64,000 nt of DNA, from assembly GCA_903813345.2 (NCBI GenBank), contig CAIIXF020000003.1:4673815-4737814 (forward strand), in the 5' to 3' direction. The notes beneath the pieces were generated by a model. That model saw only the letters and a program-made list of their open reading frames with translations. It searched no databases and was not told the origin of the DNA. The position numbers and the translations under genes were made by a program. Below are positions 2,303 to 53,800 of the stretch, one piece after another (position 1 is the first letter of the stretch; every line of letters starts with the position of its first letter). The stretch comes from Owenia fusiformis. Its lineage: Eukaryota > Annelida > Polychaeta > Sabellida > Oweniidae.

Positions 2303-2450
2303 ATGTTTCTTTATAGAAATTATAAATTATTAACAGTGTTGATTTTATTGCAAATGGAGTTAGCATCTTGTTCCTTCTTTGGCCCCCGGTTTAAACTTCC
2401 AACATATCATGGACCAATAAGAGAGCCGCCGTTCTTCACGAACATCTCTG
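2303..2450 (+). CDS. VWA gene exon 1: signal peptide
   Basis: The exon gives 49 codons plus one base (phase 1) and ends ATCTCTG before the donor gtaagt. ATG 2303 is preferred because it places a signal peptide at the N-terminus. In-frame ATGs at 2252 and 2267 would add about 12-17 residues before it. The exon's 3' edge is the seed of the 63-bp array that follows. Confidence 0.65.
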
Positions 2451-5400
2451 GTAAGTGATTTAAGTGTACATTATCCATACTAAGGGATTCACCTCTCTTC
2501 ACGAACATCTCTGGTAAGTGATTTAAGTGTACATTATCCATACTAAGGGGTTCATCTCTCTTCATTAACAGTTCTGTTAAGTGATTGAAGTGAACATTAT
2601 CCACACTAAGGGATTCATCTCTCTTCATTAACAGTTCTGTTAAGTGATTGAAGTGAACATTATCCACACTAAGGGATTCATCTCTCTTCATTAACAGTTC
2701 TGTTAAGTGATTGAAGTGAACATTATCCACACTAAGGGATTCATCTCTCTTCATTAACAGTTCTGTTAAGTGATTGAAGTGAACATTATCCACACTAAGG
2801 GATTCATCTCTCTTCATTAACAGTTCTGTTAAGTGATTGAAGTGAACATTATCCACACTAAGGGATTCATCTCTCTTCATTAACAGTTCTGTTAAGTGAT
2901 TGAAGTGAACATTATCCACACTAAGGGATTCATCTCTCTTCATTAACAGTTCTGTTAAGTGATTGAAGTGAACATTATCCACACTAAGGGATTCATCTCT
3001 CTTCATTAACAGTTCTGTTAAGTTATTGAAGTGAACATTATCCACACTAAGGGATTCATCTCTCTTCATTAACAGTTCTGTTAAGTTATTGAAGTGAACA
3101 TTATCCACACTAAGGGATTCATCTCTCTTCATTAACAGTTCAGTTAAGTGATTGAAGTGAACATTATCCACACTAAGGGATTCATCTCTCTTCATTAACA
3201 GTTCTGTTAAGTTATTGAAGTGAACATTATCCACACTAAGGGATTCATCTCTCTTCATTAACAGTTCTGTTAAGTGATTGAAGTGAACATTATCCACACT
3301 AAGGGATTCATCTCTCTTCATTAACAGTTCTGTTAAGTTATTGAAGTGAACATTATCCATACTAAGGGATTCATCTCTCTTCATTAACAGTTCTGTTAAG
3401 TGATTGAAGTGAACATTATCCACACTAAGGGATTCATCTCTCTTCATTAACAGTTCTGTTAAGTGATTGAAGTGTACATTATCCACACTAAGGGATTCAT
3501 CTTTCTTCATTAACAGTTCTGTTAAGTGATTGAAGTTTACATTATCAACATTGGGATTCATCTTTCTTCATTAACAGTTCTGTTAGTGATTGAAGTTTAC
3601 ATTATCCATACTAAGGGATTCACCTCTCCTCATTAACAGTTCTGTTAAGTGATTGAAGTGAACATTATCCATACTAAGGGATTCACCTCTCTTCATTAAC
3701 AGTTCTGTTAAGTGATTGAAGTTTACATTATCCATACTGAGGGATTCATCTTTCTTCATTAACAGTTCTGTTAAGTGATTGAAGTGTACATTATCCATAC
3801 TGAGGGATTCATCTTTCTTCATTAACAGTTCTGTTAAGTGATTGAAGTTTACATTATCAATACTAGGGATTCAACTTTTTTCATTAACAGTTCTGTTAAG
3901 TGATTGAAGTGTACATTATCCACACTAAGGGATTCATCTCTCTTCATTAACAGTTCTGTTAGGTGATTGAAGTGTACATTATCCATACTGAGGGATTCAT
4001 CTTTCTTCATTAACAGTTCTGTTAAGTGATTGAAGTGAACATTATCAATACTAGGGATTCAACTTTTTTCATTAACAGTTCTGTTAAGTGATTGAAGTGA
4101 ACATTATCCATACTGAGGGATTCATCTTTCTTCATTAACAGTTCTGTTAAGTGATTGAAGTGAACATTATCAATACTAGGGATTCATCTTTCTTCATTAA
4201 CAGTTCTGTTAAGTGATTGAAGTGAACATTATCCACACTAAGGGATTCATCTCTCTTCATTAACAGTTCTGTTAAGTGATTGAAGTGAACATTATCCATA
4301 CTAAGGGATTCATCTTTCTTCATTAACAGTTCTGTTAAGTGATTGAAGTTTACATTATCAATACTAGGGATTCATCTTTCTTCATTAACAGTTCTGTTAA
4401 GTGATTGAAGTTTACATTATCAACATTGGGATTCATCTTTCTTCATTAGCAGTTCTGTTAAGTGATTGAAGTGTATATTACCCATACAAAGGGATTCATC
4501 TTTCTTCATTAACAGATCTGGTATGTAATTGAAGTGTACATTACTCACACGACCGTTTAACTAAAGCAGGTCAAATTGATATAATTTAACAAATGTCGAC
4601 AAGAGGTAAATTCAGAATTTTAATTAGCAATTTCAGGCCGTTCGAGAAATATTGCTTATTTTGGAATAACTTTTCTTCCCTTGATTTGTCCTTTGAGAAA
4701 CCTAAACAACATTGGAGACATATATCTGACCTTATTCCATACAAATGCCATGACAATCAATTAAGTATTGACAGAGTTATGGCCACTATGGTAACCACTG
4801 TCACGGGTATGCGGGGCAAACCTAAAGTTTTACATGATAGTCCATTTGTCATTTTCTGAACGTATAAATATTTAAAAGTATGATGTTTTTCTGTGTTAAT
4901 ACTATCATTAGGGATTATTGGAGTGATTTAGCTGGGTTGCCAAAAAATAACTTTGGGGAAAATTTTTGTATCTATTATCATGGTAACATACCAGGTATAT
5001 GGTGGTATCCAAACGCTAAGTCAATAGTCAACGCCATGTTAAGCGATTGCACCCCTCCCTAATCAGCCTATATCATTTTTTCCCCAAACAAACTTTTTGG
5101 GCAACCCAGTTAAATCACTTCAGAAAACCCTTATTATCATGAATCGACCATAAAACATCGTACTTTTAACAATTTCTAGGTTCACTATTGGATGTATAGG
5201 GGTGACAAATGGACTATGAAGAATTATTGTTATACTTCAAATAACCACTTTTTGATGAATCAAACAGTTATATGGTGAAATTCGTACTATGTATTAATTA
5301 ATTAACTAAGACCCATGGTATCACAATATAATAAATCTTTAGAGGAATATCCCATCACAATCCAAATCAGCTGATGTCTGCAGTAAACACCTCCAGGTGT

Positions 5401-17471: not shown

Positions 17472-17763
17472 CTATGACTCATCAGCTTCAAATTTATAGA
17501 TGTCCCAATATTTCTGACAAATGATATCCAATGGTGGTCGATTGCTTCTGTGAACAGTACACTCCAATTTAGAGACCAAGTTCCTCATTTCCAGGTCAAC
17601 ATCCGGGTCTTGCAAGCAATCAAAATGCATGCTGGGAAAATCGTCGAGGGATTGATCCGCCAGAATCAGTGCTGCCTTGGCGATAAAAGATGGCGCGTAT
17701 TGACAGATAGCATAGTCAGTGAGGGAAAGCTCAAGGAAAAATCGAGCCACTGCCCTGGTACAT
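17472..17763 (-). CDS. CCNO: Cyclin exon 5: C-terminal cyclin fold and stop
   Basis: Acceptor ttgttatccag, then TGTACCAGG; phase 2 with exon 4 (AG + A = Arg). Encodes CTRAVARFFLELSLTDYAIC through YWDIYKFEADES and a TAG stop. The C-terminus ends shortly after the second cyclin fold, as in cyclin O. Confidence 0.88.
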
Positions 17764-20700
17764 CTGGATAACAAAAAAGAACTATCATGATTGAATAGTA
17801 TATTAATGATATAAGGGATTAAAGTAACTTTTCAGAAAACACTTTGTAAAGAAATACGTTACTTTTCAAATAACATCTTAGGACAGAAAATTCAACTTTC
17901 TTTAAAAAAGAGGGGTCTACTCTTTTGGTATGTGCATAATGGTTTTTATTACTGTTCTGGTTGAATTTTATAATTCTTTTAATCTAACGCCAATTAAAAC
18001 TACAGCGCAAAATACCTCAACTGTTCGATAGTACAATCCCCCAGTACAACCTCATTGACCTGACTAGATGTCAGGTGTTCGAGGAAATAGGCGCTTGTTG
18101 GGACGGAGAGGTCGAATTTAAGGGTCTGAAGCATTATTTTCTCCATGTGTAGCACTTGGCCGTAGTCGGATGATGCACAGGCAAAGTAGATCAGGTCGTT
18201 AATCTCGGGTGGATAAATTTCCTCCTTAAATTGAAACAGTATATTAGAGAGAAGAATAACTACATATAAATGTCATGATGAAGTAAGATTGAAACAGCCA
18301 ACAGTCCAGGCGGACCGAGTTTCTTGTTCAAAACTGAATACAATTTCGAACAAAATACTCAATCGACTGGGCGCTGGCCGATGGTTCGGAGCAAATGTAA
18401 GCCAGGCATAATGCCAGATAGAAATCTCTTTGCGACGATACACACAGGCATTAACAACCAAAATGATTCTTATAGAAATGTGTTCCTGAAACATACGAGG
18501 GTTGTCACAAAAGTAATGCACTATACGCTCTAATTAACTTTTTCAATAATTGATATTTTCCCATGAGATTTTCAGTAAATGCTCCTTAGAGATTCTACAA
18601 ATTGTCATTTTGACCGATAATACTGTGTTGATGTTATAATAAAATCAAGTTGGTGAGTTTGGGTAGGGTGGGGCAGGTTACTGTCACGTCAAAAGGAATA
18701 AAAATTGAAAATATGAAATAATTAATCAACAAATGCCATTTTTAAAGCTATAAGAAGTATGCTCAGAAATACATTTTAAGATGCTAAATTACTAGGAGCA
18801 CATCCTAGATTTGATGGATGTATATTGCACAGTCTCCCATTTCACATTTTCTCAAAATGTTGGCTTTTGCATGTTATGTACTTTTGATGTCTTTCAGGTC
18901 GAACACTTTTGTCAATTTCTTCAACCGTGACTTGTGGAGTTTTTCCTCCCATGTTTGGAGTTTTCCGGTCATCATTTTTAAATCTCTCACTCTAACTGGT
19001 GTATACTCCTTTTATACATTCTTCATGGTAGCATAAGTTTGTGTGACTGTAAGCCAAAGTGAAGTATGAAATTTGGCCACCAAACGCAAGGCTTTCTGTT
19101 TTCAGGTTTGAGAATTGCAGCCATTTTTGCAATTTATTGACTGTGACTGAATTTGAATTTGTGACTATTGAGCTGTGGTATTATGACTATTGAGCTGTGG
19201 TATTATGACTATTGAGCTGTGGTATTATGACTATTGAGCTGTGGTATTATGACACAGCAATGCTAAATATCATTATTTGTACTTGTTGAACATCATGCTG
19301 AATAAAGTTAACAATTTCCCAAACATTTTGGTCATTTAAAAGAAAGAAATATTAATAAAATAACAATTTGGAGCTTTTCATGATTAGAAAAATTGGTACC
19401 TGCCCCGCCCACCCCTACCCCAGTGTTGCTATAGCAACCATTTTAAGACCATTTTACTTCTGGGACAACGCTCGCATGAGCATTCAGATAACAATTGATG
19501 TGTGTCAATTTATGTCAAGCTCAATCTAAACGTAATGTTAGATTGAAATGAATCGCACAAAACGAGCGATACACATTCGAAATTTGATTTTCACACTATT
19601 TCCACACATTCGCCGCTTATCGGGTACTCCATAAACATTATTTTATAGGCATGTATTTTTCTCACTATCCACGCTTTCATCCCTGGTTAAAAAGACAAAC
19701 CTTGCTTGATATAATTTAACTCACGTGTTTCGCAGCTATCAGGTACGATGTGAGGCCAACAAGCTGGTAAATATTCTTAGAGATAGGAACAGCGGCAATG
19801 AATCTGTCCACTTTACTTACGTGTTTCGCAGCTATCAGGTACGATGTGAGGCCAACAAGCTGGTAAACATTCTTAGAGATAGGAACAGCGGCAATGAATC
19901 TGTCCACTTTACTTACGTGTTTCGCAGCTATCAGGTACGATGTGAGGCCAACAAGCTGGTAAATATTCTTAGAGATAGGAACAGCAGCAATGAATCTGTC
20001 CACTTTACTTACGTGTTTCGCAGCTATCAGGTACGATGTGAGACCAACAAGCTTGAAGATATTCTTAGAGATAGGAACAGCGGCAATGAATCTGTCCATT
20101 TTACTTACGTGTTTCGCAGCTATCAGGTACGATGTGAGGCCAACAAGCTGGTAAACATTCTTAGAGATAGGAACAGCGGCAATGAATCTGTCCACTTTAC
20201 TTACGTGTTTCGCAGCTATCAGGTACGATGTGAGGCCAACAAGCTGGTAAACATTCTTAGAGATAGGAACAGCGGCAATGAATCTGTCCACTTTACTTAC
20301 GTGTTTCGCAGCTATCAGGTACGATGTGAGGCCAACAAGCTGGTAAATATTCTTAGAGATAGGAACAGCAGCAATGAATCTGTCCACTTTACTTACGTGT
20401 TTCGCAGCTATCAGGTACGATGTGAGGCCAACAAGCTGGTAAATATTCTTAGAGATAGGAACAGCAGCAATGAATCTGTCCACTTTACTTACGTGTTTCG
20501 CAGCTATCAGGTACGATGTGAGACCAACAAGCTTGAAGATATTCTTAGAGATAGGAACAGCGGCAATGAATCTGTCCATTTTACTTACGTGTTTCGCAGC
20601 TATCAGGTACGATGTGAGACCAACAAGCTTGAAGATATTCTTAGAGATAGGAACAGCGGCAATGAATCTGTCCATTTTACTTACGTGTTTCCCAGCTATC

Positions 20701-22286
20701 AGGTACGATGTGAGGCCAACAAGCTGGTAAATATTTTTAGAGATAGGAACAGCAGCAATGAATCTGTCCATTTTACTTACGTGTTTCCCAGCTATCAGGT
20801 ACGATGTGAGGCCAACAAGCTGGTAAATATTTTTAGAGATAGGAACAGCAGCAATGAATCTGTCCATTTTACTTACGTGTTTCCCAGCTATCAGGTACGA
20901 TGTGAGACCAACAAGCTGGTAGATATTCTTAGAGATAGGAACAGAGGCAATGAATCTGTCCATCAGGTTAACTGCCAAGAATAACGTGTCAGGATAGAAC
21001 TTGTAGTTGTGGTTCAATTTGATTAACCAATCGATCAACTGGCTACGCATGGCTGGTGTAATCTAAAAAGTGTTTTAGATCATTCAATTCATTATTTTAC
21101 TAAAAATCATTGATTGATTGTAGATTATACATAGTCATACTCGTAGCGTAAGATTCCCATTGACATACAGGGATGTGTTAAAGCGACAGCTCGGTAGTCG
21201 TTTCAGAGTAAATTAACGCGCACCGATATCGTTGGTAAAACGAGGTGAAACCAAAGCTCCGTGTAATATGCTTTTCAAATTCAAATTTCAAATTCTATTG
21301 ATTGTTAAATTTGTTAGAAGGTGGTAAATGTTTATGTTTTCAGAATATCTCAAATTTCCGGTCGAAAGGCATTCATCAAAGATTCAGTACGTTTAGTTCA
21401 AAACACTTACATTCGGTTGCCGTTCTTTATTGCCACTTTAAAGTCGATTTATTAAAATTGTTTATTCTCTTTATATTCCATAGAAATTCAATAAATACCT
21501 CCGTCTGCTTCTCGAGGCAGGCCAAGGGATGGAACTTCATCTCCATGCCTCTTTTGTGCATGTAGTTATCCGTCACATACGTTGTCAGCGCGTGATTGCT
21601 GCGTTCTCGTTCAAGCGAGACTTGAGCATGATCCGATGAGAGAGGATGACGACCAGTCCTAACTTTCATTGACAATACAGGCTCGCTATGACGTCGACTG
21701 TCCCTATAAAACGCCGGGGGGCGCTCATTGGCTCTAAAGGTCTGGACATCCAAATGAGGTCGACTGAACCTACGTGGTTTCTTGGGAGCGGCTTCAATAG
21801 GCTGAAATGTAAAAGGAAATGTCAACTTCCAGTGCGTGTAGTTCAAATTGACACCCGTGATTTATTAACAACCAATCATCAACTGAAATATGGTAAATGA
21901 TCAATTTATCAAAAACTAATAACCATGTGACGAAAAGAGAGAATGTCCCTCGAATTATATCTGAAAGTACATAACTAAACGATGGATTTTTTGTAATGAA
22001 ATAAAGTGAACACTTCTGGGGTCTCGGGTCTTGGACCTGTAAGCCTACGTAATATGCTTAGTTTGTTTGGAATGGAGGTACGACTGATTACCTGACTTTC
22101 TTGATCTTCAAAAGGCTCGTCGCTGTACACAGTAGGACAGACTTTTTTAGGATGAGAGCATTCTTCACCAAATGCGCATGCGCTTGTTTCAACTTCCTGT
22201 ATCGTCATCAAGTTTTGCTTTCTTATCGGATCAGAGAATGAATCCTCGTGGAATGACTGATACCCCATATCTAACGACAAATCCAT
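17472..22286 (-). CDS. CCNO: Cyclin O-like cyclin (5 exons)
   Basis: Exons in transcript order: 22304-22092, 21801-21499, 21062-20877, 18224-18016, 17763-17472. All junctions are GT-AG and phases match, giving 394 codons from ATG 22286. The cyclin box starts MRSQLIDWLI (residues 171-180) and continues with MDRF, YQLVG and AAKH-EEIYPPE across the exon 3/4 junction. The second cyclin fold reads FLELSLTDYAICQYAPS. Among A/B-type families, cyclin O fits best by YQLVGLTSYLIA, FLEHLT and ELSLTDYA. Cyclins bind and activate a CDK; cyclin O in vertebrates supports centriole amplification in multiciliated cells. A divergent cyclin A/B is the alternative. A non-coding or short coding exon upstream of 22304 is implied by the acceptor there. 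Exon 3 is followed by duplicated copies of its own end. Confidence 0.8.
18016..18224 (-). CDS. CCNO: Cyclin exon 4
   Basis: Acceptor caatttaag, then GAGGAAATT; donor gtattt. Encodes EEIYPPEINDLIYFACASSD to FFLEHLT-like SAYFLEHLTSSQ and EQL. EEIYPPE is the classic cyclin box motif and fuses with AAKH of exon 3. Confidence 0.9.
18296..18412. repeat. Dispersed hairpin repeat family, copy 2
   Basis: It contains gaacaaaatactcaatcg, cggagcaaatgt and gccaggcat, shared with copies at 11778-11873 and 58362-58477. It lies in cyclin intron 3. Confidence 0.6.
18530..19700. other. Cyclin intron 3, unique part
   Basis: No exon is seen. At about 19168-19255 a 22-bp unit (gactattgagctgtggtatt) is repeated four times. 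Confidence 0.5.
19168..19255. repeat. 22-bp tandem repeat, 4 copies
   Basis: The unit gactattgagctgtggtatt plus at is repeated almost perfectly. Confidence 0.85.
19725..20876 (-). repeat. 96-bp array: 12 in-frame copies of the cyclin exon 3 end plus donor
   Basis: Each unit holds the last 29 codons of exon 3 (MDRF...AAKH) and then GTAAGTAAA. Donors sit exactly 96 bp apart at exon ends 20877, 20781 and so on to 19725; the last reads GTGAGT and is followed in frame by TAA. 96 is divisible by three and no unit has a stop, so the frame 21062-19725 stays open for 446 codons. Subtypes with IYQLVG, VYQLVG and IFKLVG alternate in blocks. The opposite-strand 419-residue frame is a by-product. Confidence 0.95.
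20877..21062 (-). CDS. CCNO: Cyclin exon 3: start of the cyclin box
   Basis: Acceptor cactttttag, then ATTACACCAGCC; 62 codons, phase 0 at both ends. Encodes ITPAMRSQLIDWLIK through AGKH. The end chosen is the first donor met (GTAAGT), which yields a normal-length cyclin box on joining exon 4; twelve further in-frame donors follow. Confidence 0.9.
21499..21801 (-). CDS. CCNO: Cyclin exon 2
   Basis: Acceptor ttttacatttcag, donor gtattt, 101 codons, phase 0 at both ends. The N-terminal part is basic and Pro/Ser-rich (PKKPRRFSRP). The last part, NYMHKRGMEMKFHPLACLEK, is the usual stretch just before a cyclin box. Confidence 0.85.
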
Positions 22287-25552: not shown

Positions 25553-26645
25553 GGGTATCTTGAAGGATGGAGTAGGTCTTCATTGGGCAAAGAGCATGAG
25601 CCTGGACAATGAACGCCCGATCTTGAAGGATGGAGTAGGTCTTCATTGGGCCAAGAGCATGAGCCTGGACAATGAACGCCCGATCTTGAAGGATGGAGTA
25701 GGTCTTCATTGGGTAAAGAGCATGAGCCTGGACAATGAACGCCTGATCTTGAAGGAGGGAGTAGGTCTTCATTGGGCAAAGAGCATGAGCCTGGACAATG
25801 AACGCCCGATCTTGAAGGATGGAGTAGGTCTTCATTGGGCAAAGAGCATGAGCCTGGACAATGAACGCCCGATCTTGAAGGATGGAGTAGGTCTTCATTG
25901 GGCCAAGAGCATGAGCCTGGACAATGAACGCCCGATCTTGAAGGATGGAGTAGGTCTTCATTGGTCCAAGAGCATGAGTCTGTACAATGAATTCCCGATC
26001 TTGAAGGATGGAGTAGGTCTTCATTGGGCAAAGAGCATGAGCCTGGACAATGAACGCCCGATCTTGAAGGATGGAGTAGGTCTTCATTGGGCCAAGAGCA
26101 TGAGCCTGGACAATGAACGCCCGATCTTGAAGGATGGAGTAGGTCTTCATTGGGTAAAGAGCATGAGCCTGGACAATGAACGCCTGATCTTGAAGGAGGG
26201 AGTAGGTCTTCATTGGGCAAAGAGCATGAGCCTGGACAATGAACGCCTGATCTTGAAGGAGGGAGTAGGTCTTCATTGGGTAAAGAGCATGAGCCTGGAC
26301 AATGAACGCCTGATCTTGAAGGAGGGAGTAGGTCTTCATTGGGCAAAGAGCATGAGCCTGGACAATGAACGCCCGATCTTGAAGGATGGAGTAGGTCTTC
26401 ATTGGGTAAAGAGCATGAGCCTGGACAATGAACGCCCGATCTTGAAGGATGGAGTAGGTCTTCATTGGGCAAAGAGCATGAGCCTGTATAATGAACGCCT
26501 GATCTTGAAGGATGGAGTAGGTCTTCATTGGGCAAAGAGCATGAGCCTGTATAATGAACGCCCGATCTTGAAGGATGGAGTAGGTCTTCATTGGTCCAAG
26601 AGCATGAGTCTAGACAATGAATTCCCGATCTTGAAGGATGCTCCA
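25553..26645. repeat. 63-bp tandem array, about 17 units, orphan
   Basis: The unit begins gatcttgaaggatggagtag and includes cattgggcaaagagcatgag and gacaatgaacgccc. Because 63 is divisible by three, three frames stay open for 353-386 codons on both strands. Unlike the other large arrays it does not abut a recognised exon edge, and no consensus donor occurs in the unit. A seed exon, perhaps a 5' untranslated exon of the cyclin or of an unknown gene, cannot be excluded. Confidence 0.9.
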
Positions 26646-35800: not shown

Positions 35801-38800
35801 CCCCTAGCTAGCAAAAGTTTCATAAAATTGATTCTATTGATTCAAACCCTTTTTCTAATTTCCTTTTTAATTGACCCATGAACTTTAAATTAAGTGCCCA
35901 GAAACCACCAAAGAGCATATTAAAATCGTAAAATCTTCTAGAGGGAGTGGACCACCCTCGCTCAGATTTTTTAAAAAAAAATCTGAATTTATTTTATTTG
36001 TTGTCTCAGACACTTTAAAAGTGCCAAGACATTATCAAATAGCTAGCACCTTGAAATGGTCGTTTTACTTATTATCGAACACCTTAAAAGTGTTCATAAA
36101 TCACTAACATAATCGATGCAGTACATTGGAATCGCCCTTTTCTTATGTTTCTCAAAATTGCTCATACTAACAAAATATGAAACAGAATTAAAGTGGGCCT
36201 AATTTAGAAGGTAAGCGAAAACCCCAATTCGATCCCGATCTCACTGCCGTTAATTTACGCAGTAAATATTAACCAGTTTATTATTTTAGTAAAAACCGCA
36301 CCCCCTTAAGGAAAAGTGTCTGACGGGCCTGTTTGGACATCTATGTTAAAATTATTGTGTTGCTACCTTGAGCCATTTTTACATATTAACACTTATAGTA
36401 TTCTTAAAAGAACTGCAAATATAACATGTATATAATGGACTCATCATAGAATCAGGACATTGCTATTGCCTGGGTAAGAATGGAAATATGACATATGAAA
36501 TGGACTCACCATAGAATCAGGACACTGCTATTGCCTGGGTGAGAACTGCAAATATGACATATGAAATGAACTCACCATAGAATCAGAACACTGCTATTGC
36601 CTGGGTGAGAACTGCAAATATGACATATGAAATGGACTCACCATAGAACCAGGACATTGCTATTCGCTGGGCAAGAACTGCAAATATGACATATGAAATG
36701 GACTCACCATAGAACCAGGACATTGCTATTCGCTGGGCAAGAACTGCAAATATGACATATGAAATGGACTCACCATAGAATCAGGACATTGCTATTGCCT
36801 GGGTGAGAACTGCAAATATGACATATGAAATGGACTCACCATAGAATCAGGACATTGCTATTGCCTTGGCAAGAACTGCAAATATGACATATGAAATGGA
36901 CACACCATAGAACCAGGACACTGCTATTGTCAGGATAAGAACTGCAAATATGACATATGAAATGGACTCACCATAGAACCAGGACACTGCTATTGCGTGA
37001 ATAAGAACTGCAAATATGACATATGAAATGGACTCACCATAGAATCAGGACATTGCTATTGCCTGGGTGAGAACTGCAAATATGACATATGAAATGGACT
37101 CACCATAGAATCAGGACACTGCTATTGCCTGGGTAAGAACTGCAAATATGACATATAAAATGGACACACCATAGAACCAGGACACTGCTATTGTCAGGAT
37201 AAGAACTGCAAATATGACATATGAAATGGACTCACCATAGAATCAGGACACTGCTATTGCCTTGGCAAGAACTGCAAATATGACATATGAAATGGACTCA
37301 CCATAGAACCAGGACACTGCTATTGTCAGGATAAGAACTGCAAATATGACATATGAAATGGACACACCATAGAACCAGGACACTGCTATTGTCAGGATAA
37401 GAACTGCAAATATGACATATGAAATGGACTCACCATAGAATCAGGACACTGCTATTGCCTTGGCAAGAACTGCAAATATGACATATGAAATGGACTCACC
37501 ATAGAATCAGGACACTGCTATTGCCTGGTTAAGAACTGCAAATATGACATATGAAATGGACTCACCATAGAACCAGGACATTGCTATTGCCTGAATAAGA
37601 TTGCAAATGTGACATATAAAATGGACACACCATAGAATCAGGACATTGCTATTGCCTGGGTGAGAACTGCAAATATGACATATGAAATGGACTCACCATA
37701 GAATCAGGACATTGCTATTCGCTGGGCAAGAACTGCAAATATGACATATGAAATGGACTCACCATAGAACCAGGACATTGCTATTGCCTTGGCAAGAACT
37801 GCAAATATGACATATGAAATGGACTCACCATAGAACCAGGACACTGCTATTGCCTGGTTAAGAACTGCAAATATGACGTATGAAATGGACTCACCATAGA
37901 ATCAGGACACTGCTATTGTCAGGATAAGAACTGCAAATATGACATATGAAATGGACTCACCATAGAATCAGGACACTGCTATTGCCTGGGTGAGAACTGC
38001 AAATATGACATATGAAATGAACTCACCATAGAATCAGGACACTGCTATTGCCTGGGTGAGAACTGCAAATATGACATATGAAATGGACTCACCATAGAAC
38101 CAGGACATTGCTATTCGCTGGGCAAGAACTGCAAATATGACATATGAAATGGACTCACCATAGAATCAGGACATTGCTATTGCCTGGGTGAGAACTGCAA
38201 ATATGACATATGAAATGGACTCACCATAGAATCAGAACACTGCTATTGCCTGGGTGAGAACTGCAAATATGACATATGAAATGGACTCACCATAGAATCA
38301 GGACACTGCTATTGCCTGGTTAAGAACTGCAAATGTGACATAAGAAATGAACTCACCATAGAATCAGGACACTGCTATTGCCTTGGCAAGAACTGCAAAT
38401 ATGACGTATGAAATGGACTTACCATAGAATCAGGACACTGCTATTGCCTGGGTAAGAACTGCAAATATGACATAAGAAATGAACTCACCATAGAACCAGG
38501 ACACTGCTATTGCCTGGGTAAGAACTGCAAATATGACATATGAAATGGACTCACCATAGAATCAGGACACTGCTACTGCCTGAATAAGAATGCAAATGTG
38601 ACATATAAAATGGACACACCATAGAACCAGGACACTGCTATTGTCAGGATAAGAACTGCAAATATGACATATGAAATGGACTCACCATAGAATCAGGACA
38701 CTGCTATTGCCTGGTTAAGAACTGCAAATGTGACATAAGAAATGAACTCACCATAGAATCAGGACACTGCTATTGCCTGGGTAAGAACTGCAAATATGAC

Positions 38801-41800
38801 ATATGAAATGGACTCACCATAGAATCAGGACACTGCTATTGCCTGGTTAAGAACTGCAAATGTGACATAAGAAATGAACTCACCATAGAATCAGGACACT
38901 GCTATTGCCTGGGAAAGAACTGCAAATGTGACATAAGAAATGAACTCACCATAGAATCAGGACACTGCTATTGCCTGGGTAAGAACTGCAAATATGACAT
39001 ATGAAATGGACTCACCATAGAATCAGGACATTGCTATTGCCTGGGTGAGAACTGCAAATATGACATATGAAATGGACTCACCATAGAATCAGGACACTGC
39101 TATTGCCTGGGTAAGAACTGCAAATATGACATATGAAATGGACTCACCATAGAATCAGGACACTGCTATTGCCTGGGCAAGAACTGCAAATATGACATAT
39201 GAAATGGACTCACCATAGAACCAGGACACTGCTATTGCCTGGGCAAGAACTGCAAATATAATGGATGTTCCGGCTGCAAATGTATCCAATATAGTGAACA
39301 CATACATTCCGCCCTGGAAGAAAAATAAAATTCGAAACATAACATTTTTGCAGTTTCACATGTTGTACTTAATAGGAAAAAATAAAGGTTACTTTATAGT
39401 CCCAATATAAAATACAATTATTCGGATTATGAAATCACGGTATAATCCTGGATTTTGCTCACAATAACAAATTCGATTTAACAATACTTACGTAAGTGAC
39501 ATTCACTATACTAATCAGGAAAGCCCCAAGTATCACAATGGCAGTTATTATTTCTCGGCCCCATCTTTTATTTTTAAAGAACGGCTTAAACTCATCCTTG
39601 AATGCCGTCAGTAGAGATTCCATGCCTCCCATCTGAAATCAGTGAAATATTGAAAAACAAAATTGCAAACAATATAAGTCAACGGAAAAAGAACATTTCC
39701 ATTTTCAATCGAAATGAATTTAAAAATTACTGCATCTTAATTCACCTTAAATTATGAAATTAATTGAATATAATTGATTTTGAATTCTTCGTTTTTATTT
39801 TAATGATTTACTGCATTCCGTTTTAGGGTCAAAAAGTATAAACCAGCACAGCAGTTAAAAACGGCTTTGTATAAAAAACCTCCTACCCACGCACCCTCTT
39901 ACCCACGTACGTGGGTCCTGACTCAGTCTTTAAAGAGTTAAATCTTTAACATTTTTTAAACATTATTCTATCTCAATGTATGCTTAATTATGGATGAATT
40001 TATGTACCCATATGCCTTTATTTCTAGATCGGACATCTGTCTCGTCATAAAATAAAGCCAGCATTGCATAATGTTCATTTGAGCTATTTAAGTGTTGTTT
40101 TTGATATATCGAAGCGATTTTTTGTTGATCGGGCAGTCTTACAGTGTACAACCAATCTATTGCTTGGCGCAAATTCGACCAAGCGCATATATTTAGTATT
40201 TTTGTCAGTCATACTTTTAATAGTCCTATACCTTTTAATTTACCATAATGTATATAGAATTTTGTATAAATGACATTTACAATCTGCATGAGGTAACAGG
40301 AGGCACGGATTGCACTGAACGAAGGCTAGGAGATTGCTAATCAGCACTGATGTGTTATACAGGTAAGACTGCCCGATCAACAAAAAACATTTCGACATAT
40401 CAAAAACATAAATCAAATAGCTCAAAAATAATGAACATTTATGCAATTCCGGCTTTATTTTATTTTACTAGAGAGATGTCAGACCTATAAATAAAGGCAT
40501 ATGGATGCATAAATTCATCTATAATTCAGGATAAACTGAGATTGAATAATTAACTCTTTAAAGACTCGGTCAGGACCCACGTACGTGTGTACGAGGGTAC
40601 GTGGGTAGGAGGTTTTTTATACAAAGCCGTTAAAAACATATAATACATGTGTATAGTAGCACCGATTTTAAAACAAAATTTCGATAAAATCAATCGTTAT
40701 CATTTATATCTGCTGGATCTTAATTCACATCAATATTTGATCAAATATCTCATTCCGCTTCGAAAATTACAACTAAGGGTCCAACCAAACATTCGAGTGC
40801 CGTTTTAAAAAGAGTGTTTTAAACATTGTACACACTCTAATCTTTGCTGCAACAATGCAATAAAACAGCACTGTGATATTCGTAGCTACTTACAGCGCTG
40901 TCCAGGCCAAGTGTGAGGAGCATGACGAAGAATACAATGGCCCATCCCTGAGCCCCGGGTAAAGTAGCTATTGCTTCTGGATAGACAATGAACACCAAAC
41001 CAGGACCTGCAATTTAATATGTTTTGCATATATTTTATACGATTTATACAATAAACACCAAACAAGGACCTGCAATTTCATATTATGTTATGCATGTATT
41101 ATATCCGATTTATACAACAAACCCCGAACCTGGACCTGCTATTTCATATGTTATGCCCAGGTGCTTGTCTTGAGGGTCGGGCAAGCCCTCCGATGTGTTT
41201 TTACTGATCTAAGTAGTGAAAGGGAGGCCAATGTTGATGCTTCCTGAAATTTGTACAACATGATTGTTAGATATATCCAGTAAAATATATGGAATCCTTT
41301 CAATAATCGACATGCTGATTCAAACAACACTACATAGCAAAATTACCCAAAATGGTAGCAATCCATCCACTAGTTGCTGAGAAATCTAAAGAATGTGTAA
41401 AGAAGTGATTAAAATGCAAAATACCGACAATTTTTACCTCAAGATTATTAGCTCTAGAGTCGATTACTTCGTAGTGTCCTTCATAGCTTTTATTGCGTCA
41501 AAATGAGAAGGATATGACCTCATAAATGTGTCAAAAAGTTAAACGTGTTTCGCAGTATTTTATACGATTTATACAATAAACATCAAACCTGGACCTGCAA
41601 TTTCATATGCTTTGCAAGTATTTTACACGAGATATACAATAAACATCAAACCTGGACCTTCAATTTCATATGCTTTGCAAGTATTTTATACGAATTATAC
41701 AATAAACACCAAACCTGGACTGAAATTTCATATGTTTTGCAAGTATTTTATACGAGGTATACAATAAAAACCAAACCAGGACCTGCAATTTCATATGCTT

Positions 41801-44800
41801 TGCAAGTATTTTATACGAGGTATACAATAAACACCAAACCAGGACCTGCAATTTCATATGTTTTGAAGTATGCGATACGATTTATACAATAAACACCAAA
41901 CCAGGACCTGCAATTTCATATGCTTTGCAAGTATTTAATACGATTTATACAATAAACCCCAAACCAGGACCCGCAATTCCATATGTTTTGCAAGTATTTT
42001 ATATGAGGTATACAATAAACACCAAACCAGGACCTGCAATTTCATATGTTTTGAAGTATTTTATACGATTTATACAATAAACCCCAAACCAGGACCTGCA
42101 ATTTCATATGTTTTGCAAGTATTTTATACGAGGTATACAATTAACACCAAACCAGGACCTGCAATTTCATATGTTTTGAAGTATTTAATACGATTTATAC
42201 AATAAACCCCAAACATGGACCTGCAATTTCAGAGATAATGCACATTTAATATGCGATTCATTACTAAAACACGCCCCGTCCCTCATTTACTATTGGATAT
42301 GGAGTTTATCCAAACTGCTGTAACGAAATACCTCATGATATGTAAATAAGTTAGTTTTGAGTTTAACAACAAGCTATTATGACATATCAATTGGTCCAGA
42401 ACTACTATAGCTTTGCGTGGTCAATTACATTTTAATTCGTCAAAGACCCAAGTTAAGATAATGTAAATGTAATTATAATGTCCTAGCAATAGTTCTTACC
42501 TTGTTTAGCCACATCTTCTATGTTAACGCCCTGTGTGGACGCCATATAGCCGAGGTAGGAGAATATGACGAACCCGGAAAAAAGACTAGTGAAGCTATTC
42601 ACCCCTGCCGTCACAATGCAATCCCTAAAATATGACAATATATTTAAAATGCAATCATTACAATATGGCAATATCAAAATACAATCCTTACAATATGGTG
42701 ATGTCACAATGCAATCCTTACAATGTGGTAATATCATAATGCAATCCCCTTGCAATATTGCGATGTCAAAATGCAATACTGGCAATATGGGAAATTATTA
42801 TGATGCAATCGATAGCATATGGCAATACCATGATGCAATCGTTATCATATTGCAATATCATTATGCTATCCTTACAATGTGGTAATATCATTATGAAATC
42901 CTTACAATATGACAAAATCAAAATACAATCGTAACACTTTTGCGATCTTTACAACATGATTATACCACAGTGGAATCCCTACACTAGGCAATGTCACAAT
43001 GCACTCCATACAATATAGCAATGACAAAATGCAACACCGACAATATTGCAATATCATTATAAAATCGTTACACTATTGCGATCTTTACAATATGGTTATA
43101 CCACAGTGCAATTCCTACACTAGACAATGTCATAATGCACCCCATACAGTATGGCAATGTCAAAATTCAGTCCATACAATATGGTGCTATAACAATAGGA
43201 GGCAAACCACACTGCCATCTCTATATCGACTTTAGACATATTTGTGTTTACCTATAACAGTAGGAGGTAAACCGCATTGCTATCTTTATATCGACCTAAG
43301 ACATATTTGTATTTACCTATAACAGTTGTTGTGGAATGTATTGTAGCTTGCGTATGCAATATGGACATATTTGTATTTACCTCTAAAGGTAGGAGGCAAA
43401 CTGCACCGTTATCTTTATATCGACCTAAGACTTATTTGTATTTACCTATAACAGTTGTTGTGGAATGTATTGTAGCTTTCGTATGCAATATGGACATATT
43501 TGTATTTACCTCTAAAGGTAGGAGGCAAACTGCACTGTTATCTTTATATCGACCTAAGACATATTTGTATTTACCTATAACAGTTGTTGTGGAATGTATT
43601 GTAGCTTTCGTATGCAATATGGACATATTTGTGTTTACCTCTAAAGGTAGGAGGCAAACTGCACTGTTATCTTTATATCGACCTTAGACATATTTTTATC
43701 GCATGATCTGTAAAATGAAGCCCTCTGATTGGTCAGTTCTTGTGCTGTACCAATCTGTATTGCTACTGAGATTGTCCGCGTTGATCATCTCCGTCGCAAT
43801 ACAGAAAATATTGGTACGGAGGAGACAATCTCAGTAGCAATACAGAGGATAACACGATAAAAACGTTATTGAATGATTTGAAGTGCAAAACAGGATATAT
43901 TCTGTCTCGATATTCTGTATTGCCACTCGACTTCGTCTCGTTCCAATACGGAATTTCTCGAACAGAATATATCCTGTATTGCACTTCAAATCATTCAATA
44001 ACTTATAGTATTTACCTATAACAGTTGTTGTGGAATGTATTGTAGCTTTCGTATGCATATGGACATATTTGTATTTACCTTTAACAGTTGTTGTGGAATG
44101 TATTGTAGCTTTCGTATGCAATATGGACATATTTGTATTTACCTCTAAAGGTAGGAGGCAAACTGCACTGTTATCTTTATATCGACCTAAGACATATTTG
44201 TATTTACCTATAACAGTTGTTGTGGAATGTATTGTAGCTTGCGTATGCAATATGGACATATTTGTATTTACCTATAACAGTTGTTGTGGAATGTATTGTA
44301 GCTTGCGTATGCAATATGGACATATTTGTATTTACCTATAACAGTTGTTGTGGAATGTATTGTAGCTTTCGTATGCAATATGGACATATTTGTATTTACC
44401 TATAACTGTTGTTGTGGAATGTATTGTAGCTTGCGTATGCAATATGGACATATTTGTGTTTACCTATAACAGTTGTTGTGGAACGTATTGTAGCTGGCGT
44501 ATGCAATATGGACGCCAAACCCGGCACCTACCGAGAAGAAAATCTGGTTAGCAGCATCTATCCAAACCTTAAAGTAAAACAAAGTAAAAATGATTGAATG
44601 AATAAACAATAAGAGCTCAGGGGAATCGATCCCGCGGACTCTAAACTTTGAAATTACATAACTTGACGTGCATATCTTGCTGATACAATCAAGACTTCCT
44701 ACAGTAGTAGCTGACGCTGATTTCTTGGAAAATTTGAATTTCGTAAGAAATTTGACTTAACAATTGTTTGATAGTCATGTTCTTGTCTCTTGAACAATGG

Positions 44801-47800: not shown

Positions 47801-50800
47801 GGTTGAGTGGACTCTATCAAGTCAAATATTTGAATTTGACCTCTATCGCCACAGGTTTTTTCTCATACAGCATCTTTTTATTTCAATCTAGTGTAAAATT
47901 ACATCTCATCAAACATACATGATCTATAATATGGAGTTATTCCAATGAATAGTTTCCTAGGCATAACAGTCCATACAGGCATTCTGAAACCATATATTTT
48001 CACATACAACCACCCTCCCACCCTCATATAAACTAAGGAGAGAAGCAAAGTCACACAACTGGCCATGAATAGTGACACAAATATATCCTTTATGGAATTA
48101 AAGTACTTCCTTCTGTTTTATATGAAAAATCAATGAAAAATTATGATGTTTCCATGGATATTTGGGTGGTAATTTCAAAGAGAAAATGTAACCCTAACCA
48201 CAAAATGTAAACATCATAATCATATGCTGTTGTAATGCTGAGACCACAAACTTTGTTGTTATAAACATTTAGATTGAATAAAGAAACCGATTGTCAAATA
48301 TATTTTGATTGAAAAGGCATGCTTGATTTCTTAAGTTTACCCCTTGTGATAAAAGGGTTAGTATCTAATTTTGCATTCAGACAAAATTCAAATGGCCCTA
48401 ACATTTTTAAACTTACATTAGGATCCCCGAGTCTTTCCAGTTTGGGCGTGATGAAGTACAGAATGCCATCCAGGGCACCTGGGAGAAGGACTCCTCTAAT
48501 CAGCAGTATCAACATGACTATATAAGGCATGGTTGCCGTTACCCATACTACCTGTGGATAAAATGATTTGTATTATTAAGTACAAAATGCCATCCAGGGC
48601 ACTTGGGAGAAGGACTCCTCTAATCAGCAGTATCAACATGACTATATAAGGCATGGTTGCCGTTACCCATACTACCTGTGGATAAAATTGTTTGTATTAT
48701 TAAGTACAGAATGCCATCCAGGGCACTTGGGAGAAGGACTCCTCTAATCAGCAGTATCAACATGACTATATAAGGCATGGTTGCCGTTACCCATACTACC
48801 TGTGGATAAAATGGTTTGTATTATTAAGTACAGAATGCCATCCAGGGCACCTGGGAGAAGGACTCCTCTAATCAGCAGTATTAACATGACTATATAAGGC
48901 ATGGTTGCCGTTACCCATACTACCTGTGAATAAAATGGTTTGTATTATTAAGTACAGAATGCCATCCAAGGCACCTGGGAGAAGGACTCCTCTAATCAGC
49001 AGTATCAACATGACTATATAAGGCATGGTTGCCGTTACCCATACTACCTGTGAATAAAATGGTTTGTATTATTAAGTACAGAATGCCATCCAGGGCACCT
49101 GGGAGAAGGACTCCTCTAATCAACAGTATCAACATGACTATATAAGGCATGGTTGCCGTTACCCATACTACCTGTGGATAAAATGATTTGTATTATTAAG
49201 TACAGAATGCCATCCAGGGCACCTGGGAGAAGGACTCCTCTAATCAGGAGTATCAACATGACTATATAAGGCATGGTTGCCGTTACCCATACTACCTGTG
49301 GATAAAATGGTTTGTATTATTAAGAACAGAATGCCATCCAGGGCACCTGGGAGAAGGACTCCTCTAATCAGCAGTATTAACATGACTATATAAGGCATGG
49401 TTGCCGTTACCCATACTACCTGTGGATAAAATGGTTTGTATTATTAAGTACAGAATGCCATCCAGGGCACCTTGGAGAAGGACTCCTCTAATCAGCAGTA
49501 TCAACATGACTATATAAGGCATGGTTGCCGTTACCCATACTACCTGTGGATAAAATTGTTTGTATTATTAAGTACAAAATGCCATCCAGGGCACTTGGGA
49601 GAAGGACTCCTCTAATCAGCAGTATCAACATGACTATATAAGGCATGGTTGCCGTTACCCATTCTACCTGTGGATAAAATTGTTTGTATTATTAAGTACA
49701 GAATGCCATCCAGGGCACTTGGGAGAAGGACTCCTCTAATCAGCAGTATCAACATGACTATATAAGGCATGGTTGCCGTTACCCATACTACCTGTGGATA
49801 AAATTGTTTGTATTATTAGGTACAAAATGCCGTCCGGGGTACTTCACCAGGTGAATGTGCATCTTTACAGTTGTCAAAGTAGACGATGAACACACAAACC
49901 AGCCACCGCCAGCATTAAATGAGGATTAATGTACCTTACAAGGGGTATTGACGCATTTCCAGATGGAAAAGTAAAGGATCGGATGGTGAACACACACACA
50001 ATACATGTCACTAAAGGAGGATTTATATGACAGAGGAATGGACGCGTTTACAGAGGGCAAAGTAAAGGATGGTGAACACACACACAATATATAGCACTTA
50101 AGGAGGATTTATATAACATAAGAATGGACGCCTTTACAAAGGGCAAAGTAAAGGATGGTGAACACACACACAATATATAGCACTTAAGGAGGATTTATAT
50201 AACATAAGAATGGACGCCTTTACAAAGGGCAAAGTAAAGGATGGTGAAAACACACACAATATATAGCACTTAAGGAGGATTTATATAACATAAGAATGGA
50301 CGCCTTTACAACGGGCAAAGTAAAGGATGGTGAACACACACACAATATATAGCACTTAAGGAGGATTTATATAACATAGGAATGGACGCTTTTACAGAGG
50401 GCAAAGTAAATAATGATGAACATACATATCAAACTTAGCACTTAAGAAGGATTTTGACGCCTTGAGGGGAATAGAAAGGACGATGCATACATAAGACGGA
50501 TTAAATGAATAAACACAAAGAGCACACGCGCATCGAACTCGCAACCTCGTGGTTATGGCGCCCAATCGCCTAGCTCGAACGAGCTGGCACACCAGAGGGA
50601 GCACAGCGGACATTTTCTACACACACACACTGCTCGACTGTCCTTAAGAACCAAGAGCAGGTTAATACCTCTGCAACTGAAAGCTCAGACAGTGATCATA
50701 AATGAATAAACACAAGGAGCACACGCACCTCGAACTCGCAACCTCGTGGTTATGGCGCCCAATCGTAGATTAAGATCTAACCACTGAAAGGGGATGAAAA

Positions 50801-53800
50801 ATTACAAACAACATGTTCAACTTAACTTCTAATTTATTCAATATGATCTAAAATACATTATCTCCAAAAATATCCACGATATGATAATTCGATCCACAAA
50901 TTGAACAATATGAAATGATTAAGAGTGCAACAATTGTAGAAGGTGTTTAAATACTCCCAAATGAAAAAAATGTAACAATAAAAAAATAATAATGCACTAA
51001 TTCCTGGAATTTAGTTTACACTTTAGGTATTTCAGAACAAAGACATAACAGGAAATTATATGAGCCAAAAATATTCTAAAATGGATGAATAATGAATGTA
51101 CACATCAAGCACAGCACTAAAGAAGGATTACCATACCTTACCAGATGAATTGACGCCTTTTCATCGTACAAAGTAAAGGACGATGAGCACGCACATCAAG
51201 CACAAACCTAAAGGAGGATTACTATACCTTCCCGGATGAATGGACGCCTTTCTATAGAGCAAAGTAAAGGACGATGAGCACGCACATCAAGCACGAACCT
51301 AAAGGAGGATTACTATACCTTCCCGGATGAATGGACGCCTTTCAATAGGGCAAAGTAAAGGACGATGAACACGCACCTAAAGGAGGATTACTATACTTTC
51401 CCAGATGAATGGACGCCTTTCCATAGGGCAAAGTAAAGGACGATGAGCACGCATATCAAACACAAACCTAAAGGAGGATTACTATACCTTCCCAGATGAA
51501 TGGACGCCTTTTCATCGTGCAAAGTAAAGGACGATGAGCACGCACATCAAGCACAAACCTAAAGGAGGATTACTATACCTTCCCGGATGAATGGACGCCT
51601 TTCTATAGAGCAAAGTAAAGGACGATGAGCACGCACATCAAGCACGAACCTAAAGGAGGATTACTATACCTTCCCGGATGAATGGACGCCTTTCCATCGT
51701 GCAAAGTAAAGGACGATAAGCACGCATATCAAACACAAACCTAAAGGAGGATTACTATACCTTCCCAGATGAATGGACGCCTTTCCGCAGGGCAAAGTAA
51801 AGGACGATGAGCACGCACATCAAGCACGAACCTAAAGGAGGATTACTATACCTTCCCAGATGAATGGACGCCTTTCCGCAGGGCAAAGTAAAGGACGATG
51901 AGCACACACATCAAGCATGAACCTAAAGGAGGATTACTATACCTTCCCAGATGAATGGACGCCTTTCCGCAGGGCAAAGTAAAGGACGATGAGCACACAC
52001 ATCAAGCAGGAACCTAAAGGAGGATTACTATACCTTCCCAGATGAATGGACGCCTTTCCGCAGGGCAAAGTAAAGGACGATGAGCACGCACATCAAGCAC
52101 AAACCTAAAGGAGGATTACTATACCTTCCCAGATGAATGGACGCCTTTCCATCGTGCAAAGTAAAGGACGATGAGCACACACATCAAGCACAAACCTAAA
52201 GGAGGATTACTATACTTTCCCAGATGAATGGACGCCTTTCCATCGTGCAAAGTAAAGGACGATGAGCACACACATCAAGCACGAACCTAAAGGAGGATTA
52301 CTATACCTTCCCAGATGAATGGACGCCTTTCCGCAGGGCAAAGTAAAGAACGATGAACACACACATCAAGCACGAACCTAAAGAAGGATAACTATATCTT
52401 CCCAGATGAATGGACGCCTTTCCGCAGGGCAAAGAAAAGGACGATGAGCACGCACCTAAAGGAGGATTACTATACCTTCCCAGATGAATGGACGCCTTTC
52501 CGCAGGGCAAAGTAAAGGACGATGAACACGCACCTAAAGGAGGATAACTATACCTTCCCGGATGAATGGACGCCTTTCCGCAGGGCAAAGAAAAGGACGA
52601 TGAACACGCACCTAAAGGAGGATTACTATACCTTCCCAGATGAATGGACGCCTTTCCGCAGGGCAAAGTAAAGGACGATGAGCACACACATCAAGCACGA
52701 ACCTAAAGGAGGATTACTATACTTTCCAAGATGAATGGACGCCTTTTCATCGTACAAAGTAAAGGACGATGAGCACACACATCAAGCACGAACCTAAAGG
52801 AGGATTACTATACTTTCCCAGATGAATGGACGCCTTTTCATCGTGCAAAGTAAAGGACGATGAGCACACACATCAAGCACGAACCTAAAGGAGGATTACT
52901 ATACCTTCCCAGATGAATGGACGCCCTTCCATAGGGCAAAGTAAAGGACGATGAACACACACATCAAGCACAGCACTAACTGCCACCTCGGGGCACCAAG
53001 ATCATCTACGCCAGTACTTTTGTGGAGCTGAAGAACACCTCTTCTGAAAATGAAAAATGAATATATTTTAAAATATTTAAATAGTATAAATCAATATATA
53101 TCATGGACATTCATTGAATCAATTTATACTAGTATGGTTATTTAATCATTTAATTTACAATAAATACACAGGTTCTCATAGATTTGTAGTACTGGGAACT
53201 CCACGAAATAGTATAAATTCTAAGAAAAGTGACTTGAGCTAAATATTTTATGGATATATCAATGCACTCCATTAATGAAATGTTTTTAACTTACAAACAT
53301 TGCAAAATTATTAACATCAGATTACTAAAAGCAATATATTCCCAAGTAGTCCTTCGCCGGAGAATTGAATTGTTACCGTTGGATGTATGATTTATGGAAC
53401 AGAATATATTTAGTTATTCATTTTTTAGATTCTAGTTCTCGTAAGATATGATAATGGTATGAAATATTTCCCTTTGGGCGCACGTATATTATACGATTTA
53501 GCCCAGAAAAATCGTTAAATTTTATTCTAACATTTCTCCTTTCATATTTTGAAAGGGATCTAGATAAAAAGGATAACATTGAAGAATAAAATAAGAGAAT
53601 GCCAATGTTCACAAATATCATGTTTCTAAAAGATTGTAATCTATACTTTAACTTCTGTTTTTGTTTATTGTTGTTCTAGAATATATTTATACAGTATAGT
53701 TTTTGATCTACATACTCAAAGTATTCGGTGGCACTAGAAGACCCATTCAGGGTTGCGTTCGGACTAGAAGTAGTAAGGTTAGTAATGTTACGAGGATTCG

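Follow-up and report, generated by a model that had tools for sequence, protein, structure and literature searches.

A 64,000-nucleotide stretch of the genome of the annelid Owenia fusiformis (contig CAIIXF020000003.1, positions 4,673,815 to 4,737,814; hereafter the window, to which positions refer unless another locus is named) carries a cyclin gene and a monoamine-transporter (SLC6) gene, with the boundary between exon 3 and intron 3 of the cyclin gene repeated as a tandem array of 13 units, each bearing a splice donor. The cyclin gene is composed of five coding exons on the minus strand, running from 22286 to 17475, with every intron of the GT-AG type; a further 5′ untranslated exon upstream is possible. 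The parts of the gene and of the array were placed as follows, with P0001 denoting the deposited protein 'unnamed protein product [Owenia fusiformis]'.

22092..22286, minus strand: first coding exon, with the ATG at 22286 (exact spliced match to P0001)
21499..21801, minus strand: exon 2 (spliced match to P0001)
20877..21062, minus strand: exon 3, first part of the cyclin box; the ordinary exon obtained with donor 1 (spliced match to P0001)
19716-20963, minus strand: array of 13 x 96 bp, with unit 1 forming the end of exon 3 and units 2-13 lying in intron 3
20871..20876, minus strand: donor 1, GTAAGT, the donor that gives the deposited protein
19719..19724, minus strand: donor 13, GTGAGT, running directly into an in-frame TAA (GTG AGT TAA)
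18016..18224, minus strand: exon 4, beginning EEIYPPE (spliced match to P0001)
17475..17763, minus strand: exon 5, followed by the stop codon at 17474-17472

Splicing at donor 1 yields a protein identical to P0001 at 394/394 residues, with the Pfam domains Cyclin_N (E = 2.2e-32) and Cyclin_C (E = 1.8e-9) both recognised, and with cyclin A2 (E = 8.5e-28) and cyclin B1 the closest solved structures. Exon 3 ends in phase 0 with the sequence ...GGGAAACAC, followed immediately by GTAAGT, and exon 4 starts GAG GAA, such that the spliced junction reads AAACAC from exon 3 joined to GAGGAAATT from exon 4. The repeated segment aligns with 'YIDRFLSSM...LLASKF' of cyclin A2, in the middle of the conserved cyclin box.

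Each 96-nt unit corresponds to 87 nt from the end of exon 3 joined to the 9 nt with which intron 3 begins. Tandem Repeats Finder (TRF) places the array at 19719-20962 with a period of 96, 13.0 copies, 96% matches, and 0% indels, and a cut in register gives 13 units from 20963 down to 19716, every one 96 nt long, with zero indels. Both confirm the 13 in-frame donors at 96-nt spacing and the 12 exact-length copies of the original prediction, with its extent of 19725..21062 now corrected to that of the array itself and the ordinary donor recognised as one of the 13; the essentials hold. Twelve of the donors read GTAAGT, at 20876 and then at each 96 nt down to 19820, with a predicted U1 pairing of -7.3 kcal/mol each, and donor 13 is weaker at -5.8 kcal/mol. 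The reading frame remains open throughout exon 3 and on through unit 13, with the first stop just past the last donor, as had been predicted, and the proposal that donor n adds n-1 x 32 residues in frame agrees with the phase of exon 3 and the start of exon 4. Exon 3 would measure 186 nt via donor 1 and 282-1338 nt via donors 2-13, and the junction between units, AAACACGTAAGTAAA[AG]TGGAC, would be confined to pre-mRNA or an elongated mRNA.

Divergence among the units is slight and neutral-like, with 6 distinct types among the 13 units and 12 columns that vary. When the final 9 nt of unit 13 are set aside, 10 distinct changes remain, comprising 6 replacement, 4 silent, and 0 stop, where a random single change in the unit would be a replacement in 69-72%, silent in 24-29%, and a stop in 2.3-3.5% of cases. 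The comparison of silent with non-silent changes that had been suggested as a check on selection returns 6 replacement to 4 silent changes, close to the neutral expectation of ~7 : 2.5, and the probability of meeting zero stops over 10 neutral changes is 0.70-0.80. At unit column 80, units 1-3 carry G and units 4-13 carry C, and at 20887-20889 AGK is encoded in the exon copy and in units 2-3 and AAK in units 4-13. If A is ancestral at that residue, as hinted by the ASK of cyclin A2, exon 3 would have changed and units 2-3 would have been homogenised with it, which would mean that exon and array can exchange sequence. A lone 69-bp piece, matching the cyclin array at 63/69 positions across a junction between two units, was also found ~4.36 Mb away with no array around it (L009:4989-5057; positions 330488-330556 of C3, the contig of the window, minus strand); we take it to be a dispersed fragment of the minisatellite, moved by reinsertion or template switching.

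We consider it probable (roughly 0.87) that the array is a silent minisatellite derived from the exon-intron boundary, of the 'mirage' type described in amphioxus, born by duplication of the exon 3/intron 3 boundary and with its copies removed as intron. One initial duplication would have joined the 87 nt of exon to the 9 nt of intron, with further copies probably arising through unequal exchange or slippage between units and homogenisation leaving 6 types among the 13. Splicing would then use donor 1, which adjoins the unique part of the exon, and the other 12 copies would leave as intron, with no appreciable use of donors 2-13. As donors 1-12 are equal in predicted U1 pairing, position must decide between them, probably by way of exon definition, which would favour an exon of 186 nt over one of 282-1338 nt. 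The annotation pipeline for Owenia, according to the available text of its report, drew on RNA-seq alignments, curated splice junctions, and transcript assemblies besides ab initio prediction (PMC9977687), and the deposited donor-1 model therefore counts as evidence. Of the two outcomes offered by the original prediction, silent intron behind the first donor is thus favoured, and a family of elongated cyclins finds no support.

Several points weigh against this. The identical pairing of donors 1-12 means that sequence alone offers no reason for the choice of donor 1, and the use of that donor is read from a deposited protein rather than from transcript reads. Short reads may confuse the donors, with units 1-3 sharing the same last 69 exon nt except at columns 36, 42, and 57. 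The protein searches are of limited reach, with no protein containing two or more unit copies among the 3 matches of the first search (visible lengths ~217-689 aa), and none with extra copies among the 60 matches listed in a search that scored 7998 candidates. Furthermore, the diversity of the splice hexamer is lower than the mean of the other unit positions in 5/6 of the arrays found at splice sites of the two genes of the window.

The most tenable alternative to a strictly silent array is that donor 1 is mainly used, with leaky, functionless, low-level use of donors 2-3 as splicing noise. Such leakage is compatible with the silent minisatellite and is not to be added to it as a separate outcome; we regard it as possible, though doubtful. 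The donors are identical and in tandem, and their use would lengthen the exon by merely 96 or 192 nt. In human segmental duplications, variable internal tandem repeats located at exon-intron boundaries can give rise to alternatively spliced forms, and in the accessible part of that report both forms are often seen in transcripts (PMC2812944). No leaky form is present in the deposited proteins, among the matches listed, however, and the amphioxus mirages are reported, as far as the available text goes, to splice normally (PMC3087553, PMC3902484).

Over 503 residues, the product of the other gene in the window is 100% identical to P0004, an Owenia SLC6 transporter 659 aa long, and the next named relatives are transporters of noradrenaline or dopamine from other animals. 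This gene was mapped exon by exon from residue 124 onward, giving 13 exons in the window, within which its introns are numbered. For both genes, a 30-mer around each of 32 splice sites was sought in the adjoining intron, allowing six mismatches. Clear arrays, with 9-42 extra copies, are present at 6/32 sites, and the other 26 show no extra copy at this threshold. With the results of TRF, the following arrays are recognised.

Cyclin intron 3 donor, minus strand: 12 further copies (30-mer test)
51101..52972, minus strand: donor array of SLC6 exon 53043-52905 (intron 3), 91-bp (some 78-bp) units, 20 further donors (TRF and 30-mer test)
49981..50454, minus strand: 86-bp array from the end of SLC6 exon 53043-52905, sharing 81-90% identity across its five longest matches (TRF)
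48454..49839, minus strand: acceptor array of SLC6 exon 48551-48417 (intron 3), 124-bp units, 10 further acceptors (TRF and 30-mer test)
43187..44513, minus strand: donor array of SLC6 exon 44567-44464 (intron 5), 64-bp units in two blocks, 9 further donors (TRF and 30-mer test)
42611..42930, minus strand: decayed 30-bp acceptor array of SLC6 exon 42624-42500 (TRF; best blastn match to the exon start E = 8.7e-6; missed by the 30-mer test)
40991..42231, minus strand: acceptor arrays of SLC6 exon 41006-40894 (intron 6), 62/63-bp units in two blocks, 11 further acceptors (TRF and 30-mer test)
36408..39259, minus strand: donor array of SLC6 exon 39313-39214 (intron 9), 66-bp units, 43.2 copies by TRF, 42 further donors

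Counting the decayed array, 6/24 splice sites of the SLC6 gene in the window are affected. A genome search with PF00209 (at least 107 matches; 82/425 candidates scored) did not return the known SLC6 arrays of the window and is uninformative on arrays in other SLC6 genes. Two 63-bp arrays, at 2433-4550 (33.8 copies) and 25557-26640 (17.2 copies), lie outside the coding parts of both genes, with open frames of 386 aa on the minus strand in the former and of 367 aa on the plus and 389 aa on the minus strand in the latter. No Pfam match was obtained in the pieces of these arrays that were searched and no exon edge was found. An untranslated exon further upstream in the cyclin gene is a possible location for the array at 25557-26640.

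The sister arrays serve as a control for the open frame of the cyclin ladder. In the 66-bp ladder of the SLC6 gene, the unit of which is also a multiple of 3, an in-frame stop is present in 27/39 full-length units, and 3/42 units are only 65 bp long. The cyclin ladder would be open as it was copied from an open exon, has units that are a multiple of 3, and is young. Given the first two of these points, with a length such as 96 divisible by 3 at a chance of 1/3, the open frame carries little further weight once the array is there. Recent origin with homogenisation, one of the two causes put forward earlier for the stop-free state, is enough to account for it, whilst the other, selection for an open ladder, is unneeded given the neutral-like changes and the stop-broken 66-bp ladder. 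A surplus of unit lengths divisible by 3 was likewise rejected, with the periods 96, 91, 124, 64, 63, and 66 giving 3/6 against 2 expected.

The splice signals themselves were followed across the six clear arrays with junction matching that allowed 7 mismatches. GT or AG is kept in 108/111 junction copies, a count that includes the six real sites, and hence in 102/105 copies outside the six exons. The splice hexamer is no outlier, with 33-80% of 6-nt windows equally or more invariant in 6/6 arrays, and selection on the copied splice signals is accordingly unsupported. Neutral drift with homogenisation explains the patterns of both units and hexamers.

An assembly artefact, in which the real copy number differs and units have been doubled or merged between haplotypes, is unlikely. 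It is suggested by the oddly regular order of unit types, ABBCCDDEECDEF, which consists of four doubled neighbours followed by a single CDE series, with 4 adjacent identical pairs observed against 1.54 in shuffles (P = 0.052); this order reflects either true local doubling or an effect of assembly. Against an artefact stand the private variants at both ends of the array (types A and F), the lack of any excess of doubling in the sister arrays, and the presence of similar arrays at 6 further splice sites in the window and at another locus.

Still less probable, and in our judgement very improbable, is a functional ladder in which donors 1-13 give cyclins with 0-12 extra 32-residue helix segments, perhaps in a tissue-specific manner. 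The 13/13 intact donors, the phase 0 end of the exon, and the lack of a stop before the end of unit 13 are what such a ladder would show. With so few changes, however, an open frame is expected by chance in 70-80% of cases, the ratio of replacement to silent changes among the units is neutral-like, stops interrupt the sister 66-bp ladder, and no elongated protein is among the matches listed in the two protein searches; repetition of the middle of the cyclin box should also disturb the fold. Least probable of all is that the copies are kept as intronic U1-binding sites, shielding the transcript from premature polyadenylation, or as reserve donors, an idea favoured by the retention of GT or AG in nearly all copies outside the exons but opposed by the unexceptional conservation of the splice hexamer and by 2/6 arrays copying acceptors rather than donors.

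Within the introns of the cyclin and SLC6 genes, 7/10 arrays are boundary-derived (period 25 or more, at least 3 copies, sub-arrays merged by hand), with the remaining 3/10 comprising the array at 54218-54500 and two in the 20,125-bp first SLC6 intron. Random placement of seeds gives a boundary chance of about 6-7% per array, under which 7/10 has a P of 2.0e-7 to 6.7e-7, and 6/9, without the given cyclin array, a P of 2.4e-6 to 7.0e-6, values that come from testing after the fact, with two genes of a single window. Among control 30-mers, 392/1085 from intron interiors and 8/89 from exon interiors have an extra copy within 3 kb, counts that include the many such 30-mers lying inside the arrays themselves.

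A systematic genome sample of 20 x 10 kb stretches (200 kb) contains 14 arrays by the same period and copy limits, of which 1 is demonstrably boundary-derived, a result that chance placement gives with a probability of 0.56-0.77 at the rates taken from the two genes. This is a 94-bp array (L026:6255-7281) whose end falls within an exon of a TRPM-like gene, with 10 copies of the acceptor at 94-nt spacing (one at 90) and AG intact in 10/10. The upstream exon of this gene scores 34.4 bits for the TRPM SLOG domain (cut-off 25.7), the exon at the array edge scores 21.3 bits, below the cut-off, and, taken jointly, the two exons align collinearly with TRPM channels (best E = 1.2e-7). Others of the sampled arrays (L014, L022, and L024 4014-7205) sit in long open frames and look coding. 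The last is a 99-bp x 32.2 array within an open frame of 1144 codons, a repeat that we take, from its motif, to be probably coding and of ankyrin type. A 30-bp x 9.8 array (L028:2508-2805) starts within ~15 bp of the likely donor of a chitin-synthase-like exon (neighbouring exon: Chitin_synth_2, 26.8 bits; cut-off 27), with the exon end seemingly lacking from its unit. Boundary arrays thus extend beyond the window, yet they are a minority of the resolved arrays in this unbiased sample and no more frequent than chance.

Arrays of this kind are known from amphioxus, where the available text of two reports describes mirages, tandem repeats across exon-intron boundaries, in the genes for Adh3, globins (BflGb6 and BflGb9), troponin C, and PGBD5. 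Their units measure 10 to 160 bp, splicing is normal by RT-PCR, length polymorphism is reported, and Adh3 shows somatic instability (PMC3087553, PMC3902484). As far as those texts go, mirages and the Owenia arrays have in common boundary-spanning repeats at donors or acceptors, many intact splice signals, and similar unit sizes. The cyclin unit likewise spans the boundary, its array is homogenised and free of indels with all 13 donors kept, and the deposited cyclin, known here from protein only, is consistent with normal splicing. In contrast to the mirages, the host is an annelid rather than a lancelet, the cephalochordate for which the term was coined, the clear arrays exceed the 3-6 units given for amphioxus globins in the text available, and one SLC6 gene is affected at a quarter of its splice sites in the window. 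We infer that the Owenia array works like a mirage and is of independent origin.

Other parallels are known from human, potato, and earthworm. The human boundary repeats share the position of the minisatellite at the exon-intron boundary, but are often kept in an alternative transcript and form new introns, whereas the Owenia cyclin gene has an intron 3 alongside its array and no known alternative product (PMC2812944). In potato, a boundary-spanning duplication similarly supplied splice signals and made a new intron (PMC4974935), whereas the Owenia copies sit within one intron with no new intron evident. Earthworm metallothionein genes share large minisatellite arrays in an annelid intron, the first intron in their case, with splice sites in the units not mentioned in the accessible part of the report (PMC12783039). 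No report of boundary minisatellites in Owenia or another annelid was found in the literature searched. The kind of array is therefore known, and what is new is the host lineage, an annelid and thus a protostome, the copy numbers, and the occurrence of several arrays per gene.

Identical splice-site ladders constitute a natural experiment on the choice of 5′ or 3′ sites at equal sequence strength, with the cyclin ladder offering 12 donors of one sequence that differ solely in position. More tentatively, a process active across the whole Owenia genome may seed minisatellites preferentially at donors and acceptors, in which case many genes would carry ladders of near-identical competing sites, with the copy nearest the exon read and the ladders becoming intron or occasionally leaking elongated proteins, as an independent protostome counterpart of the amphioxus mirages; the dispersal of array pieces, such as the 69-bp fragment, could be part of such a process. 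If these arrays are common in Owenia, gene models over them would hinge on the mapping of short reads, which is a warning for their use, and boundary minisatellites would have arisen at least twice in animals. Their cause, whether replication, breaks linked to transcription, or selection against repeats elsewhere, would then be testable by comparison.

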